From: Alteromonadaceae bacterium
Lineage (GTDB): Bacteria; Pseudomonadota; Gammaproteobacteria; Enterobacterales; Alteromonadaceae
Assembly (NCBI GenBank): GCA_013373625.1
Contig: JABXHM010000011.1
Location: 1 to 64,000, forward strand
Direction of reading: 5' to 3'
DNA: 64,000 nt
The notes under the pieces are model-generated. The model did not search any database and was not told where the DNA came from. It saw nothing but the letters and a program-made list of their open reading frames with translations. The first letter of the stretch is position 1. Each line of letters begins with the position of its first letter. Made by a program: the position numbers and the translations under genes. Below are positions 12,253-22,158 of the stretch, piece after piece.

Positions 12253-13215
12253 ATGCAAGTTTTGTGTATGGGTGAAGCGCTAATCGACATGCTGTCTAAC
12301 CGGGGACAGCCTGGCATTGATGATAACAACGAAAGTTTTCGAAAATTTGCGGGCGGAGCGCCGGCCAATGTGGCCGTTGCGATCGCCAAACTCGGAGGCA
12401 ACAGTGCGTTGCTGGGCAAGTTAGGGAATGATCAGTTCGGCCACTACCTCATGAAAACGCTCTCAAGTTTTGGCGTGGCGACAACATTTACCGCTTACTC
12501 CGAGACAGGTAAAACCGCCCTTGCCTTTGTAGGGTTAGACAGTGACGGCGAGCGCTCTTTCGAATTTTATATCGACAACGCAGCACATACTGATTTGCAC
12601 CCAGAGGATTTAGTTCCGGCGCTGTTTGACGCACCTCGGATTGTGAGTTTTTGCTCCGGCTCGGTATGCCTGCCAGGCCTGCGCGCAGTAACCGCTGAAG
12701 CAATACCCAAGTTTAAAGCAGCAGGCAGTGTGTTAACCCTCGATATTAACCTGCGCCCTGCATTTTGGGATGATCCAGCCCTTGCACCCACAACAATTGA
12801 TGACATTGCTTCACAGGTCGACATCATCAAAGCCAGCAAAGAAGAAATGCTAGAGCTCTACGGCGAAGCTGAAGCAGACGTCAAAGTGGCACACTGGCTC
12901 AGTCAGGGAGTGTCGCTAGTACTGATTACCAATGGCGCCGCTCCGATAGCCTACTACAGTAACGAGGCAACTGGCAGTTTTGCCAGTCCAAAGGATGTAA
13001 AAGCTGTGGATACCACCGCCGCAGGCGATGCCTTTGTTGGCGGGTTTTTGTTTCAACTCGCCGCGCAAATAAATCACCGGAACGAACTGACAAACTGGTT
13101 AGCTAACCAGAATGAACTCCTGCGTGCTTTGCGCTTCGCCTCAGCATGCGGCGCACATGCAGTGTCACATTACGGTGCATTTGACGCATTACCCACCGCA
13201 AAGGATATTCAATAA
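12253..13215 (+). CDS. PfkB-family carbohydrate kinase, probable fructokinase
   Basis: Cytoplasmic ribokinase-fold enzyme (320 residues) that phosphorylates a sugar with ATP. Start is the ATG at 12253, preceded by GGAGG; the longer frame from 12223 adds an unlikely basic tail. Signatures: GEALIDML at the N-terminus, FRKFAGGAPANVAVAIAKLGG (PfkB signature 1, about 31-51), and the catalytic anion-hole motif VDTTAAGDAFVGGFLFQL, where DTxGAGD has Ala for the first Gly. That variant occurs in fructokinase-like members. It follows the ROK regulator gene, which supports a role in catabolism of one hexose; the sugar is not proven. Confidence 0.88.
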   Translation: MQVLCMGEALIDMLSNRGQPGIDDNNESFRKFAGGAPANVAVAIAKLGGNSALLGKLGNDQFGHYLMKTLSSFGVATTFTAYSETGKTALAFVGLDSDGERSFEFYIDNAAHTDLHPEDLVPALFDAPRIVSFCSGSVCLPGLRAVTAEAIPKFKAAGSVLTLDINLRPAFWDDPALAPTTIDDIASQVDIIKASKEEMLELYGEAEADVKVAHWLSQGVSLVLITNGAAPIAYYSNEATGSFASPKDVKAVDTTAAGDAFVGGFLFQLAAQINHRNELTNWLANQNELLRALRFASACGAHAVSHYGAFDALPTAKDIQ

Positions 13216-13231
13216 TATCTGACACACTGTC

Positions 13232-13256
13232 GGCGCTCCCCTCTAAAGGTGGCGCC
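13232..13256. terminator. possible hairpin between convergent genes
   Basis: GGCGC (13232-13236) and GCGCC (13252-13256) can pair, with partial pairing inside. It lies between the sugar kinase and adenylate cyclase stop codons. No T-run, so only a weak candidate. Confidence 0.3.
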
Positions 13257-13279
13257 AACTCATTTCCTGCTACCGTTGT

Positions 13280-15259
13280 TTACCAATAATTGAGCAGTTC
13301 AAAGTCATATTCTGTGGTATCGACAAATGCCTGATAAATTCTTTTGCGTTGCATACCGTCAGGTACAAATACATAGCATGGCGGGCGTGGAAAGACCTCT
13401 TGCAGTTCAAACCATAGATTGTCGATAGCCTCTTTACCCGGCACCAGGAATGTTTCCCCCCAGGACGTGGAATACACTACCGTAATCTCTTCAACTGTTT
13501 GCTTTATCCGCATAGTGGTAAAATTAGCGACCACCAGGCAGGCCTTAATATAAGCAGGTTCAAGTAAGTTTTGCCGGGGCACGGCGTTGACACGTACTGG
13601 CGGAAAAATATCGGTAAAGTGTTTTATAAGCGACTTTAAATCATTTTCGACTACCGGCTCAGTATCATAATCGAGTAACACTTTTGTATCGGTATTGACG
13701 ACTCTGTTGCAGACACACCACAACATCAAACCCACTGGTGATTCGGCTACATATACCCGGCTTTTGTCCTGCGCTTTACCCTGTTTACCTAACAGATTGC
13801 CGTCGTAGGCGGCCCAGACCGGTTGGCCGTTTTTCAATTTATGTTGTTTAACGGTAATCACCGGACAATTTACTTTATCGTCAAAGCCGATACGCAAAAA
13901 GTCCAGTTTGTGCTCTTTTTTAGCATAATAGGCTTCAAGTCGTCGGCCCAGTACCGTCATGTCTTCCTTACTCACCGACTGCCTGCCCATTTTTAATTGC
14001 GCCGACATTCGCCGATAACACTGGATCAAAAATCGATGAATACGACGACTCAGTTGCACTAACTCACTGAACGTCCAGTTATCAGCATTGTCGAGGTGAC
14101 GCAGTTGACTGCGGTTCCAGCCCCAACGTTTTACATAGCCGGCAATAATAAGACGTTTAAAGTTAACTTCATTTTCTTCGACCGGCTGACTAAGCTTACA
14201 GCCACATTTGATATATAAACATTGCTGCAAAAGCGAGACGACGTCAGGTTGCCGGGCAGACTCATAGTGAGCAATAAGCTGGTCAAACATTAACGCATAG
14301 GGATCGATATTGGCGACATTACCCGGTGCTTCATCACCATGATGAACATGTTGTTTGAGAAGATTACATAGCGGTTGCTCATGCTCAAGATTGTCAAGGA
14401 ACACCTCAAGCTTGGCCATTTTTAACACCGACTTAAAAGGCGAGTCCATGGCTTTTCCTAATTGCCAGATCGCAGCGCCAAACAGCTCGTTAACGTCCAG
14501 CTTTTCGAGATGACCCAAATCCATAAACCAGTCGAGATCAGGAGAACCGCCTGCTTCAAGTTGATTGAGCAGCGCGTAATATTGTTTTTCTGTTGTACTA
14601 TCTGGCGTGAGCCACCAAAAAGGCGCCTTACCGGCAACCACAATGTTGGTAGTATAGAATTCGGCCTTTAAAAAGACGGCTTGCGCCGAGCCTGCACTTT
14701 CACCTTCAGCGACACCAAAGTCGTTATTTTTAACCTTATCGATGTCAGACAAAAAGAAGTGAACTTCAATATCAAAATTGTTCTGAGCCCACTGCTCTAT
14801 TGCCGAAAGCTTGTCTTGCATTTTCTGCATCGATGCCGGCGTGAGTTTATTACCGTCCACACATACCCAGTAATCAAAGTCAGACTTATCTGACTGAGCT
14901 ATGGTGCCGACACTCCCCATCAATACCAGCGCATCAATAGCACGTTGTCGAGGCCAAATGGCTTTAAGATCTTCCAGCAACGCTATTTGTTCAGGGAATA
15001 TTGCTGAAATAGCCTGCTTAACTTCCTCACGCAATGAATAGTTATTCAGGCCAAAACAAGCATCACCTTTAGCCTCTACAAAACCGGGCAGATCCGGGTG
15101 ATTAATATGCAGCAAAAAAGGTAACACATGAAACAACGGCCGATGTTCTTCCGGTAACAATACCAAAGCTCTTTCTATTCTGGCTTTGTTGTAACGCAAA
15201 ACCCGCAGCAAGCGGATTGTTAGATTTTGCTTAACCGTTCGCGGTTGTTGTGAACTCAT
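13280..15259 (-). CDS. class I adenylate cyclase, short paralogue
   Basis: Converts ATP to cAMP in the cytoplasm. The start at 15259 (MSSQQPRTVK, 659 residues) is preferred to the in-frame site at 15325. The catalytic nucleotidyltransferase half is clear: LVLMGSVGTIAQSDKSDFDYW has the Gly115-Ser116 and Asp127-x-Asp129 metal ligands in the spacing seen in E. coli CyaA, then EVHFFLSDIDKVKNNDFG and GSAQAVFLKAEFYTTNIVVAGK match the enterobacterial enzyme. The protein is about 190 residues shorter than E. coli CyaA (848), mostly in the C-terminal regulatory part, although an STSWGETFLV segment remains. The genome probably has a full-length cyaA elsewhere. It lies 143 bases after an NTF2-like gene with no clear terminator between. 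Confidence 0.85.
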   Translation of the reverse strand: MSSQQPRTVKQNLTIRLLRVLRYNKARIERALVLLPEEHRPLFHVLPFLLHINHPDLPGFVEAKGDACFGLNNYSLREEVKQAISAIFPEQIALLEDLKAIWPRQRAIDALVLMGSVGTIAQSDKSDFDYWVCVDGNKLTPASMQKMQDKLSAIEQWAQNNFDIEVHFFLSDIDKVKNNDFGVAEGESAGSAQAVFLKAEFYTTNIVVAGKAPFWWLTPDSTTEKQYYALLNQLEAGGSPDLDWFMDLGHLEKLDVNELFGAAIWQLGKAMDSPFKSVLKMAKLEVFLDNLEHEQPLCNLLKQHVHHGDEAPGNVANIDPYALMFDQLIAHYESARQPDVVSLLQQCLYIKCGCKLSQPVEENEVNFKRLIIAGYVKRWGWNRSQLRHLDNADNWTFSELVQLSRRIHRFLIQCYRRMSAQLKMGRQSVSKEDMTVLGRRLEAYYAKKEHKLDFLRIGFDDKVNCPVITVKQHKLKNGQPVWAAYDGNLLGKQGKAQDKSRVYVAESPVGLMLWCVCNRVVNTDTKVLLDYDTEPVVENDLKSLIKHFTDIFPPVRVNAVPRQNLLEPAYIKACLVVANFTTMRIKQTVEEITVVYSTSWGETFLVPGKEAIDNLWFELQEVFPRPPCYVFVPDGMQRKRIYQAFVDTTEYDFELLNYW

Positions 15260-15402
15260 TTCACCACTGTTCCTAAAAGACTCGTTACAGAATAGCTGCT
15301 TTCCTGCCAATCTGCCTAGCACCAATTTAAGTTTGCCGTGCTTTTTCTACACGCTTAACAGGCGACCGAGTGTAAACCATAGCATGATGAAACTGAAACT
15401 CG

Positions 15403-15795
15403 TTAGGCAAAGTCCAACAAGTCAGTGCCAAAGAAATTATCGATAATACAACGCCATTGATCATCGGCTTGTTTCTGCATCACATACACTGCCCGCTTGC
15501 CCTCACACGGCATGGCATTGGGCGTGTTTTTAGGTACCAGGTACAACTTGGCAATAACCAGGGCAACATCACCGGCCTCAATAACAATTTCATCGCCCGT
15601 GGTCACCAGCTGCTCTGGCATGAACCGTTGCTGAAAGTGTTGTAAGGCGGCAACGCAATCGTGCTGAACTGAGCCAGTTAATGGTGTCGACACCACTTTT
15701 GCCTGCTCACCATAACAATCGGCAAGTGCATTCAGATCGTCACAGTTGACTGCATTATGGATACGTTTTAGTACATAGGATATGGAGTCATTCAT
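15403..15795 (-). CDS. NTF2-like / SnoaL-like domain protein
   Basis: A 130-residue soluble cone-fold protein: the N-terminal helix pair (SYVLKRIHNAVNCDDLNALADCYGEQAKVV) and the strands DEIVIEAGDVALVIAKLYLV and WRCIIDNFFGT match DUF4440/SnoaL_3-type NTF2-like domains, which can be small enzymes or ligand-binding modules. Function unknown. The gene is remarkable for its upstream region: a promoter, a leader peptide rich in Ile/Val/Leu and a terminator end 37 bases before its ATG, so it appears to be attenuator-controlled. The adenylate cyclase gene follows on the same strand. Confidence 0.75.
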   Translation of the reverse strand: MNDSISYVLKRIHNAVNCDDLNALADCYGEQAKVVSTPLTGSVQHDCVAALQHFQQRFMPEQLVTTGDEIVIEAGDVALVIAKLYLVPKNTPNAMPCEGKRAVYVMQKQADDQWRCIIDNFFGTDLLDFA

Positions 15796-15831
15796 AGCTG
15801 TCGTCTCTTTATTTCACCACCACGACAAGCC

Positions 15832-15860
15832 AAAAAAAACCCGCCTTGGCGGCGGGTTTT
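15832..15860 (-). terminator. attenuator terminator with competing antiterminator
   Basis: Read on the minus strand, CCCGCC (15856-15851) pairs with GGCGGG (15845-15840) across a 5-base loop and is followed by a run of eight T. A second GGCGGG, at 15895-15890 at the end of the leader ORF, is also complementary to the same CCCGCC and would form an antiterminator. The terminator has no other upstream gene to serve on either strand. Confidence 0.8.
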
Positions 15861-15881
15861 AGTGATTCTTTTAATTACGCA

Positions 15882-15962
15882 CTAACCTTCCCGCCTATTC
15901 CGTAGAATAACGAGAATAATAATATTAACTAACAAAGCGATTGGTGCTGTGTGGTTAAACAT
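15882..15962 (-). CDS. branched-chain amino-acid leader peptide (ilv-like attenuator)
   Basis: A 26-codon ORF whose middle reads LLVNIIILVIL: ten of eleven consecutive residues are Leu, Ile or Val. It ends RNRREG-stop, and the stop codon is 22 bases before the 5' side of a T-run terminator. An in-frame ATG at 15977 would make it 31 residues; an in-frame stop lies just above that. No clear Shine-Dalgarno sequence precedes either start, which is the main weakness. Known ilv leader peptides use the same design: a ribosome stalled on Ile/Val/Leu codons leaves the GGCGGG near the ORF end free to pair with CCCGCC, preventing termination. The following genes here are NTF2-like and adenylate cyclase, not ilv genes. 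Confidence 0.6.
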   Translation of the reverse strand: MFNHTAPIALLVNIIILVILRNRREG

Positions 15963-15993
15963 ATCAGTGTTGTGCATTGATTAAGATAAGCTG

Positions 15994-16022
15994 ATTATTG
16001 AGTGCATACGAATAAAAGTCAA
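15994..16022 (-). promoter_or_regulatory. sigma70-type promoter of the leader peptide
   Basis: On the minus strand TTGACT (16022-16017) and AATAAT (15999-15994) are separated by 17 bases. Transcription would begin near 15987, ten to twenty-five bases before the leader peptide start codons. Confidence 0.6.
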
Positions 16023-16194
16023 CGGTTAAATATTCACCTTTCAGGTAACTTTGTGTATATGTGTTTTGCGCATTACCCTTAATAACTCGATAAAAAATAA
16101 CTCAATAAAAACCAGACCTGTTTAAGTTTTATTATTGCTACACACATGACTCTGAGTAAAATGAGTAAATTACATACGAAGAAGGGAAGCTAAT

Positions 16195-16440
16195 ATGGGC
16201 TCCGATACAGATGTACGAGATAAACTGGCACTTGAGCGCACTCGCCTGGCGAATGAACGGACTTTTTTAGCTTACATTCGTACTGGTTTATCGCTGCTCG
16301 GTGCAGCGGCTGTGCTGTTCCAGTTTTTTTCATCCATTAATGCGTACCTTGCAATCGCATGGGTTCTGGTCGCGCTGGGTGCGGCAGTACTCGTTGTTGG
16401 CGTATTTCGGTTTAAGCGTGTTAATGCTCAACTGAAATAA
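16195..16440 (+). CDS. DUF202 (YidH-like) inner-membrane protein
   Basis: An 81-residue two-helix membrane protein. The DUF202 signature LALERTRLANERTFLAYIRTGLSLLGAA spans residues 12-39, followed by the second hydrophobic helix AWVLVALGAAVLVVGVFRF. Family members are small inner-membrane proteins of unknown function. The ATG at 16195 has GAAGGGAAG upstream. Single gene, convergent with the acetyltransferase. Confidence 0.88.
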   Translation: MGSDTDVRDKLALERTRLANERTFLAYIRTGLSLLGAAAVLFQFFSSINAYLAIAWVLVALGAAVLVVGVFRFKRVNAQLK

Positions 16441-19998: not shown

Positions 19999-21036
19999 TT
20001 ATTTACTTAACTCGTTTCTAAGGATAGCGGCGCCAGCGCTTAGCGCTTGCAGTTTCGCTTCTGCAACCCTGCGCGGCAATGGTGCCATACCGCAGTTGGT
20101 CGATGGATAAAGCTTATCGGGGTCGACAAACTTAAATACATTGCGCAGCGTACTGGCGACTTCTTCAGGTGTTTCAATAGCATGGTTCGCTACATCGATG
20201 GCACCAACCATCACCTTCTTGCCACGAATAAGCTCAATGAGATCCATCGGCACCCGCGAGTTGTGACACTCCAATGAAATCATATCAATCGCAGAGCGTT
20301 GTAGTTTTGGGAACACCTCTTCGTATTGGCGCCATTCTGCACCTAACGATTTTTTCCAATCCGTATTCGCTTTTATGCCATAGCCATAGCAAATATGCAC
20401 CGCCGTTTCGCACTTAAGACCTTCAACGGCCTTTTCCAGCGCAGCAATGCCCCAGTCGTTAACTTCATCAAAAAACACGTTAAAGGCTGGCTCGTCAAAC
20501 TGAATGATATCCACACCTGCCGCTTCTAATTCTCTGGCTTCCTGATTGAGAATTTTGGCAAATTCCCAGGCCAGTTTCTCTCGGCTTTTATAGTGGCTGT
20601 CATACAGAGTGTCAATCATCGTCATAGGCCCTGGCAACGCCCATTTAATTGGCTGCTGAGTTTGCTGACGTAAATATTTGGCATCATCAACAAATACCGA
20701 TTGGGGTCGGGTTACCGCATCGACCACCACCGGCACGCTGGCATCGTAACGATTGCGAATTTTAACGGTTTTGCGCTGCGTAAAATCGACACCGCTTAAG
20801 TGCTCAATAAATGTCGTGACAAAGTGTTGGCGGGTTTGTTCGCCATCACTGATAATATCAATCCCGGCCTGTTGCTGAGCCAGCAAAGACAAACGCAGCG
20901 CATCCTGTTTGCCCTCAATAAGTTCGTCATCCTGTAATTTCCAGGGCGACCACAGTGTTTCTGGTTGTGCCAACCAGACGGGCTTGGGCAGGCTGCCAGC
21001 AATGGATGTGGGTAAAAGTGTTTTCATAATAGTCAT
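19999..21036 (-). CDS. mesD: folate-independent methionine synthase MesD
   Basis: A 345-residue protein homologous to the catalytic C-terminal half of MetE, lacking the folate-binding N-terminal half. The zinc ligands expected from MetE are present: His214 and Cys216 in AVHICYGYG, Glu256 in ISLECHN and Cys315 in STNCGMAPL. The substrate-proximal FDEPAF is at 180-185. The gene is followed from upstream by a DUF1852 gene, and this pairing defines MesD-MesX, a methionine synthase reported to need MesX and oxygen; the methyl donor is not established. ATG at 21036 or 21027 are both possible and neither has a clear ribosome-binding site. It lies 18 bases after mesX, so the two are co-transcribed. 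Confidence 0.88.
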   Translation of the reverse strand: MTIMKTLLPTSIAGSLPKPVWLAQPETLWSPWKLQDDELIEGKQDALRLSLLAQQQAGIDIISDGEQTRQHFVTTFIEHLSGVDFTQRKTVKIRNRYDASVPVVVDAVTRPQSVFVDDAKYLRQQTQQPIKWALPGPMTMIDTLYDSHYKSREKLAWEFAKILNQEARELEAAGVDIIQFDEPAFNVFFDEVNDWGIAALEKAVEGLKCETAVHICYGYGIKANTDWKKSLGAEWRQYEEVFPKLQRSAIDMISLECHNSRVPMDLIELIRGKKVMVGAIDVANHAIETPEEVASTLRNVFKFVDPDKLYPSTNCGMAPLPRRVAEAKLQALSAGAAILRNELSK

Positions 21037-21054
21037 ACTGTTCGTTTTACTGAG

Positions 21055-22032
21055 TTACGTGGCGCAGTTCGCAGACCACTGTTCAAGCACTGTTTGGTAA
21101 GGTTTAATAAAGTGCTGCTCGACAAATTTGCCTTGTTTCACTGCTAAATGGCTGCGCTCTTCACGGTCATACTGAATTTGCGTAACCGAGTGATCAGGAT
21201 GTTTTAAGTTGGGTTGATAGCACTTTCCCGCAACGGCATTGGCATTGTAGATTTCCGGCCGATAGATCTTTTGGAATGTCTCCATGGTGCTGATAGTACT
21301 GATGAGCTCAAGGTGTGAGTAATCATTAAGCAGATCGCCAAAGAAGTAAAAAGCCAGTGGAGCCACGCTGTTTGGCGGCATAAAATAGCGCACCTGCAGA
21401 CCCATCTTGCGAAAATACTGCTCAGTTAACGACGATTCATTTGGCTGATATTCAACACCTAATATCGGATGCTGATTTTCGGTGCGATGATACACTTTGT
21501 TTTCAGACACGCTGAGGCAGATCACTGGCGGCTTCTCAAAGTGAGATTTATAAACATCAGAGTTCACAAAATGCTTAAAGATTTTACCATGCAATTCACC
21601 AAAGCTTTGCGGAATACTAAATTGCGCTTGATCCTTGTTGTGATCAGGCAGTACAACACTGAAATCATAGTCGCGCACGTAAGAGGAAAAGTTATTGCCC
21701 ACAATGCCGGCAATGCGCTTTTCCGTGATGCGATCCACAATGGTAGCCTTGAGCATTTCAATGGTAGGGAACCCTTCCCCCTTACCCGCGATATCCATTT
21801 CAACAGAGATAATGTCCAGCTCAACTGAATACCGGTTGCCTTCAGCATTGTCCCAATGGGCTAACGCATTAAAACGGTTATCCACCATTTTGAGGGTGTT
21901 GCGCAGATTCTCACGGCGCATACTACCGCGCGCCAAATTTGCAAAGTTAGTGGTAATGCGTGTGTTGTCTGATGGCGTGTAGTTTTCATCAAAACTAACG
22001 CTCTTAATTGTAAATCTAACGTCGTTATTCAT
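21055..22032 (-). CDS. mesX: MesX (DUF1852), partner of methionine synthase MesD
   Basis: A 325-residue soluble protein of the DUF1852 family. I choose the ATG at 22032 (MNNDVRFTIKSVSFDENY), the conserved N-terminus; the reading frame stays open upstream but that sequence is non-coding in character. Conserved stretches include TTNFANLARGSMRRENLRNTLKMVDNRFNALAHWDN and VRYFMPPNSVAPLAFYFFGDLL. MesX is required for MesD-dependent methionine synthesis in Acinetobacter; its chemistry is not known, and formation or delivery of the methyl group is one idea. First gene of the mesX-mesD operon, behind a structured leader. Confidence 0.88.
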   Translation of the reverse strand: MNNDVRFTIKSVSFDENYTPSDNTRITTNFANLARGSMRRENLRNTLKMVDNRFNALAHWDNAEGNRYSVELDIISVEMDIAGKGEGFPTIEMLKATIVDRITEKRIAGIVGNNFSSYVRDYDFSVVLPDHNKDQAQFSIPQSFGELHGKIFKHFVNSDVYKSHFEKPPVICLSVSENKVYHRTENQHPILGVEYQPNESSLTEQYFRKMGLQVRYFMPPNSVAPLAFYFFGDLLNDYSHLELISTISTMETFQKIYRPEIYNANAVAGKCYQPNLKHPDHSVTQIQYDREERSHLAVKQGKFVEQHFIKPYQTVLEQWSANCAT

Positions 22033-22035
22033 CAT

Positions 22036-22158
22036 GATTCGCATTCTATTTTGTGAGATCAAACCTATTTTATGCATGGTTTTAGCTGAGGACTCAGCTC
22101 CAGCATGCACGTTCAACCAGCCGCTGTGGCTGTGGTTGAGACTACGGGTAGATTTATA
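22036..22158 (-). promoter_or_regulatory. structured 5' leader and promoter of mesXD
   Basis: Minus-strand TATAAA at 22158-22153 is a candidate -10, giving a leader of about 110 bases. In the leader, P1 pairs TCAACC..AGCC with GGCT/GGTTGA (22139-22113, 10 pairs with a 2-base bulge). P2 pairs TGCATG (22109-22104) with CATGCA (22078-22073) and encloses P3, AGCTGA/TCAGCT with a GTCC loop (22099-22084). Consecutive nested helices just before a start codon suggest a regulatory RNA. No known riboswitch consensus is recognised. Confidence 0.45.

Follow-up and report, generated by a model that had tools for sequence, protein, structure and literature searches.

Known attenuators and the leader of the NTF2-like gene

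In Gram-positive bacteria ileS is controlled by the T-box, which senses the charging of tRNA-Ile. The classical attenuators of thr, ilv and leu operons (Rfam RF00506, RF00512) combine control codons, three competing pairings and an intrinsic terminator, and they precede biosynthetic operons. Another RNA, P9 (RF00624), is classed among the small RNA genes in Rfam. We analysed a stretch of 64,000 nucleotides (the window) from an Alteromonadaceae genome of 5.1 Mb, in which a leader lies in front of an NTF2-like gene on the minus strand (Table 1). The leader has the control codons, the competing pairings and the terminator of the classical attenuators, but the gene it precedes is a single small NTF2-like gene and not a biosynthetic operon. 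With P9 it shares in-frame isoleucine codons, the segment order 1-2-3-4 and the motifs GGCGGG/CCCGCC/GGCGGG, and in a record of Pseudomonas aeruginosa P9 also has an NTF2-like gene directly 3′; unlike there, no ilvA gene comes next in Alteromonas.

At the Rfam gathering thresholds no family, the T-box included, matched in the window. By E-value, the best match of the 281-base stretch 15780-16060 was RF00624, ‘Pseudomonas sRNA P9’ (34 bits, E 7.9e-06), which is below the gathering threshold of 43 bits for that family. The scores against Thr_leader RF00506 (19.8 of 55 bits) and Leu_leader RF00512 (18.1 of 50 bits) were also below the thresholds.

The best explanation, to which we assign a probability of roughly 80 %, is that the element is a ribosome-mediated isoleucine attenuator of the P9 kind and that the NTF2-like protein is probably an accessory of isoleucine synthesis. 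A shortage of charged tRNA-Ile is likely to make the leader switch the NTF2-like gene on. The ORF, the segments, their conservation, the compensatory changes and the gene associations were all read in the sequences, whereas the sensing of tRNA, the read-through and the role of the protein are what we infer. The same sensor is predicted to serve other genes in other bacteria, those of a FlaR-like P-loop kinase and of a second isoleucyl-tRNA synthetase (IleRS) of type 2. As with the T-box, the charging of tRNA-Ile would then be sensed before an IleRS gene, although here by means of a translated leader with isoleucine codons. The mechanism itself is classical; new, as far as we found, are the P9-type RNA as an isoleucine attenuator and the set of its targets. 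If the explanation is correct, what is catalogued as a small RNA is in fact the sensor half of a response to isoleucine shortage, the sensor links NTF2-like DUF4440 proteins, FlaR-like kinases and type-2 IleRS to isoleucine, and Gram-negative bacteria possess a codon-reading counterpart of the T-box control of IleRS.

Table 1 Positions of the leader elements and of the genes that follow them in the window
Feature	Position	Strand	Basis or remark
Predicted promoter TTGACT-17 nt-AATAAT	15994..16022	-	-35 at 16022-16017, -10 at 15999-15994; sequence reading
Leader ORF, 31 codons MHNTDMFNHTAPIALLVNIIILVILRNRREG from ATG 15977, or 26 from ATG 15962	15882..15977	-	
Stop codon of the leader ORF	15884-15882	-	Sequence reading
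ATT ATT ATT, predicted control codons	15915..15923	-	Read from the sequence; stalling geometry inferred
Segment 1 (CTCGTTATTC), partner of segment 2 (protector)	15905..15914	-	Folds and covariation
Segment 2, GGCGGG at the end of the leader ORF	15890..15895	-	Sequence, folds and covariation
Segment 3, CCCGCC, partner of 2 (antiterminator) or 4 (terminator)	15851..15856	-	Folds and covariation
Segment 4, GGCGGG (15845-15840) and eight T (15839-15832); with segment 3 the intrinsic terminator	15832..15845	-	
Post-terminator stretch, predicted to fold across the bases that precede the NTF2-like start codon	15796..15831	-	Single-sequence folds
NTF2-like gene (PF14534 DUF4440), 130 aa, putative regulated gene	15403..15795	-	Profile, model and conservation
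Class I adenylate cyclase, short form, 659 aa, NF006981 755 of 802 bits	15259-13280 (from its ATG)	-	

Competing pairings and conservation of the leader

The original prediction had described a complete branched-chain amino acid attenuator, and on re-reading the sequence the promoter, the ORF, the three segments and the T run were all in place on the minus strand. The promoter match is not significant on its own, since the region 13100-16250 contained four promoter-like sites and 5.6 were expected in shuffles; TTGACT-17-AATAAT was the best of the four, and TTGAC[A/T] with the 17-nt spacing was seen again 5′ of most related leaders. Folding of 15977-15832 gave -44.4 kcal/mol (z -4.6), whereas 200 shuffled versions averaged -27.2 and none of them was as good.

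When enough charged tRNA-Ile is available, the ribosome would run on to the stop codon next to segment 2; segments 3 and 4 would then pair and transcription would stop. Without translation, segment 1 would pair with segment 2 and the 3:4 terminator would still form. When charged tRNA-Ile is short, the ribosome would stall on ATT ATT ATT and cover segment 1, so that segment 2 would capture segment 3 and RNA polymerase would read into the NTF2-like gene.

The alternative foldings agree with this scheme. All 14 core sequences folded ended in the 3:4 terminator when the full leader was used, and in the same 14 cores segment 2 paired with segment 3 when the sequence was cut before segment 4. The 1:2 protector was also present in the full fold of most cores, L009 being an exception. 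Clustered control codons, mutually exclusive antiterminator and terminator helices with a U run, and a protector, as expected of a ribosome-mediated attenuator, were found.

Covariation was assessed in an alignment of 49 rows, taken from loci with NTF2-like, kinase, GNAT or ileS2 genes (56 items, from which L002 was removed as it has no terminator, as were five identical rows, leaving 50, and then L007). In the terminator helix 98.7 % of the cells were paired and three of the eight pairs had changed on both sides, in 19 cells, a count that none of 500 shuffles reached. The antiterminator helix was paired in 99.3 % of the cells and its covariation score was higher than those of 500 out of 500 shuffles; it had one pair with a double change, and its signal came mostly from one column pair (U-G 19, U-A 16 and C-G 13). 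For the protector helix the corresponding values were 89.0 % and three pairs with double changes, the Alteromonas rows being partly out of register. None of 500 shuffles scored as high in covariation for any of the three helices, and sliding the pairing partner by one to three columns reduced pairing to 33-70 %.

The NTF2-like gene was found in 18 of the 35 genomes of the same genus that were searched, in addition to the window's own. All 19 copies have the leader with the Ile/Leu block, and the element is therefore beyond chance. The terminator is present in 18 of them. In the remaining copy (L002; G028:C1, 5′ of the gene at 1501) a deletion has taken segment 4 and the T run, while the leader and segment 3 have stayed; this attenuator has probably become unregulated through a natural deletion. 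Conservation, folds and covariation together bear out the original view of a complete attenuator with a leader ORF, mutually exclusive pairings and a terminator, tied to the NTF2-like gene.

The amino acid presumed to be sensed was named too broadly in that view. The peptide block of the window reads Leu-Leu-Val-Asn-Ile-Ile-Ile-Leu-Val-Ile-Leu, and isoleucine, with some leucine, is a better name for the sensed residue than branched-chain amino acids in general. Segment 1 consists of the codons directly after the isoleucine triplet; CTC and G(C/T)T, which are conserved, are among them, and their conservation is explained by pairing. The isoleucine triplet just 5′ of segment 1 would be a natural stalling site. 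As the leader of the window also contains leucine and valine codons, its specificity for isoleucine is presumed.

Where leaders differed in the number of bases that separate segment 1 from segment 2, the difference was a multiple of three. The N-terminal codons varied freely; among nine close relatives there were 4, 5 and 5 variable sites at codon positions 1, 2 and 3, respectively, and the third-position (synonymous) bias looked for in these leaders was not found. The case for translation is therefore based on the isoleucine block and the frame.

The lack of a clear Shine-Dalgarno sequence, regarded at first as a weak point, turned out to be real and general, as 48 of 53 leaders placed by script had no such motif (two further loci had no placed leader). 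Counted from where the -35 element begins, the leader ATG came after 34-36 nt in 25 of the 28 kinase leaders, in three of three NTF2-like leaders outside the genus, in three of four ileS2 leaders and in 4 of 18 leaders of the genus. With this spacing the ATG would coincide with the predicted start of the transcript, as in a leaderless message, which would account for the missing Shine-Dalgarno sequence in such leaders. In the window the same distance is 45 nt, which is not that of a leaderless message, and a Shine-Dalgarno sequence is missing here as well.

Between the terminator and the start codon of the NTF2-like gene, a hairpin appeared in 22 of 22 single-sequence folds (mean z -1.7; z -1.0 in the window, which is weak alone). 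Twelve of the 22 loci were at or below the 5 % shuffle level, L019 was not above chance, and the consensus fold of the stretch predicted no pairs. It is possible that a hairpin over the start-codon region acts as a second gate.

The NTF2-like protein and its neighbourhood

The NTF2-like protein scored 25.7 bits against PF14534 (DUF4440), above the curated cut-off of 25.2, and 19.7 bits against the SgcJ/EcaC family TIGR02246, below the cut-off of 33.95. Its closest solved relative, both by sequence (E 1.7e-12) and by fold (TM 0.73, from a predicted model with mean pLDDT 80), is YybH of Bacillus subtilis (2gxf). A structure search with the model found a fold common to ketosteroid isomerases and polyketide cyclases. 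Alteromonas accounts for nearly all of the gene's named relatives; one is from Aestuariibacter and three are from metagenome-assembled genomes. Five distant NTF2 relatives were seen in viral contigs. One genome of the genus (G018) has a second, distant NTF2-like gene (L022) without such a leader; at L154 (G018:C1:1432500-1443500) a FlaR-like kinase gene and a second NTF2-like gene are about 1.5 kb apart, and no isoleucine leader was found 5′ of either.

The original prediction connected the leader with cAMP through the adenylate cyclase gene, which follows the NTF2-like gene in the window after 143 bases. These bases indeed contain no minus-strand terminator-like site, as would suit a read-through reaching the cyclase. 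However, a tblastn search with the cyclase of the window gave no match near relatives of the NTF2-like gene at any of 38 loci (18 with 1.5 kb flanks and 20 named ones with up to 6 kb; at least nine contigs are in both sets), and we regard control of cAMP synthesis as the least probable of all readings. The flanking genes varied among the relatives read and the leader stayed with the NTF2-like gene. Given the differing flanks and the absence of the cyclase, the conserved unit is the leader with the NTF2-like gene and not an operon with the cyclase. The comparison with relatives thus upheld the Ile/Leu block, the stems and the NTF2-like gene within the genus, but not the cyclase gene. Elsewhere in the window (19999-22116), a gene resembling cobalamin-independent methionine synthase adjoins a MesX gene (PF08908).

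The same leader before other genes

A first covariance model, applied to 274 genomes of the class, gave 25 matches, of which L034, L035, L036 and L056 were read as attenuators besides the one in the window. The design was shared by three other genera, before NTF2-like genes (L034, L036); in one genome it occurred before a GNAT gene (L035) and before a FlaR-like kinase gene (L056). The remaining matches in the class were read as plain terminators or unrelated leaders. In the window's own genome the model gave 25 matches up to E 10, and the only strong one was that in the window. A 22-bit match there is the leader of leuA, a separate leucine attenuator (L087, G000:C23; leader MPETHYNTFLLSLLLLTAARLHG) with GCACGGG segments. 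The start-codon contexts of the two leaders are similar; descent from the leuA leader was rejected, as leuA has its own leucine leader with GCACGGG segments.

With a second model, 37 matches of at least 50 bits were obtained in 394 genomes of the order. The downstream genes encode FlaR-like P-loop kinases (25), NTF2-like proteins (6; five in the window's genus and one in G618), isoleucyl-tRNA synthetases (4) and, in two cases, thrA. The kinase leaders end with ...RIIIIP* or alike. Matches below 50 bits include further thr leaders and plain terminators; L098 was rejected as a plain terminator.

The FlaR-like kinase (‘adenylate kinase’ in the records; A7, A10) belongs to a large family with a fold like those of nucleoside-monophosphate and shikimate kinases. 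It was found in 33 of the 394 genomes, and 27 of the 30 loci examined had an isoleucine-leader attenuator, 26 recognised by script and one variant by eye (L235, with segments GGTGGG/CCCATC/GATGGG); three had none. The NTF2-like model matched in 32 of the same 394 genomes, six of them with the leader. Among 24 other NTF2-like loci that were read, the three-segment leader was present in none of the 23 assessable ones (L205 had too little upstream DNA); L204 has one GTG ORF with KIIIIF and no segments. It is thus in Alteromonas and a few other genera, and not in the remaining families, that the leader and the NTF2-like gene go together. At L138 (G569:C3) an isoleucine leader, MNLNLTHKVSRIIIMP, and a terminator hairpin are followed by a different ORF of 485 aa, not a kinase, and this locus is apparently a true leftover.

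Genomes with one of the four attenuated IleRS genes encode two full-length IleRS, compared with a single one in five other genomes that were checked. The N-terminal 493 aa of an attenuated IleRS matched eukaryotic cytoplasmic IleRS with 652 bits, 8c8u with 468 and the Staphylococcus aureus enzyme 1ffy with 249; we take 8c8u to be the IleRS2 of Priestia and 1ffy to be of type 1. The same protein matched the MupB and MupA profiles below their cut-offs, and the attenuated ORFs keep the HXGH motif (as HHGH). By sequence, each of the four attenuated IleRS is a second enzyme that resembles type 2.

P9, ilvA and the function of the leader

The P9 threshold was passed by 12 of the 28 distinct isoleucine-leader loci tested (31 given, less three repeats of the same place), including two from Alteromonas (L005 with 43.7 and L008 with 44.7 bits). 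The contrast loci did not match P9 (two thr leaders, a third thr leader which matched as Thr_leader, and leuA). The printed P9 consensus itself is an isoleucine leader, AUU AUU AUU ACC GCC AUU ... to UAG beside GGCGGG. In P. aeruginosa ZYPA1927, where P9 scored 89.8 bits, the leader reads MTFATLLTRRSIITAIPAMAG and is followed by an SgcJ/EcaC (NTF2-like) gene; the frame of this gene has an overlap of 4 nt with ilvA, annotated ‘threonine ammonia-lyase, biosynthetic’. The NTF2-like protein of this strain is 33 % identical to that of the window and 42-43 % identical to those of L104, L034 and L036. The adjacency of NTF2-like and ilvA genes was seen in this one record and was absent in three other annotated relatives (Pantoea, Klebsiella and Ruegeria). 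A search of plasmids with L104 for P9-like DNA returned terminator fragments only, the isoleucine stretch of P9 had no exact match in viral contigs, and the P9 consensus had no match in phages. In the literature covered, no isoleucine attenuator was reported before NTF2-like, FlaR-like or type-2 ileS genes, P9 not being among the topics, and the text of PMC3460626 did not contain the P9 terms.

If the filing of P9 as an sRNA gene is taken at its word, and several of these leaders do match that family, the element would be a trans-acting small RNA with an incidental ORF. We find this improbable, because the P9 consensus has in-frame isoleucine codons running to UAG beside segment 2 together with the three-segment design, the isoleucine codons are kept before unlike genes, and a gene lies 3′ on the same strand at every locus read except the apparent remnant L138.

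Since the same kind of leader precedes an NTF2-like gene and ilvA in P. aeruginosa, its origin is likely to be biosynthetic (ilv). To this extent the suspicion that the attenuator of the window is left over from a lost ilv operon had substance, and ilvA downstream in P. aeruginosa would fit a remnant that now works as a terminator only. The leader would nevertheless still have a gene of its own to regulate: the block and the segments persist in 19 of 19 copies, with compensatory changes, and the leader and the NTF2-like gene remain together across unrelated neighbourhoods, so that the leftover part of the idea failed and such a remnant is very unlikely. The ilvA gene of the window's genome is on another contig, where it follows ilvD, and no NTF2-like gene was among the ORFs read there.

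For the isoleucine attenuator with an accessory protein, our likeliest guess is that the NTF2-like protein assists at the threonine ammonia-lyase (IlvA) step, because its fold suits an enamine or enol substrate and because of the ilvA operon in P. aeruginosa, i.e. one annotated operon and a fold. A broader version is possible but held with less than even confidence: P9 would be a translated, frequently leaderless Ile-tRNA attenuator heading an isoleucine-shortage regulon, which would comprise ilvA with its NTF2-like partner, the stand-alone NTF2-like gene, type-2 IleRS and the FlaR-like kinase in marine and other Gammaproteobacteria. The NTF2-like protein would then be an overlooked enzyme of isoleucine synthesis, acting e.g. 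on the reactive enamine/imine from threonine ammonia-lyase.

It could also be that the leaders trigger a defence against IleRS inhibitors, mupirocin- or thiomarinol-like compounds that lower the charging of tRNA-Ile, with type-2 IleRS, kinase, GNAT and NTF2-like proteins bypassing or inactivating the inhibitor. PMC10485003 and PMC4861432 describe IleRS2 as the mupirocin-resistant kind and IleRS1 as the one generally present in proteobacteria, which relates the type of the four attenuated second IleRS to resistant enzymes. Marine Pseudoalteromonas produce thiomarinols (PMC3069032). Furthermore, G357, G377 and G397, with attenuated ileS2, and G046, with an attenuated kinase gene, are of one genus and carry different cargo. 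On the other hand, P9 of P. aeruginosa serves NTF2-like and ilvA genes, which is a biosynthetic setting; the attenuated IleRS have the ordinary HXGH and not the GXHH form, which is linked with hyper-resistance; and an inhibitor-directed activity of the kinase and the NTF2-like protein is conjecture. We consider the defence reading doubtful and retain the isoleucine attenuator with a biosynthetic accessory.

The P. aeruginosa locus (L241) lies in a record labelled as a plasmid of ZYPA1927 (NZ_CP133752.1), in which cyoE, a siderophore receptor gene, P9, the NTF2-like gene and ilvA occur in a stretch that looks chromosomal.
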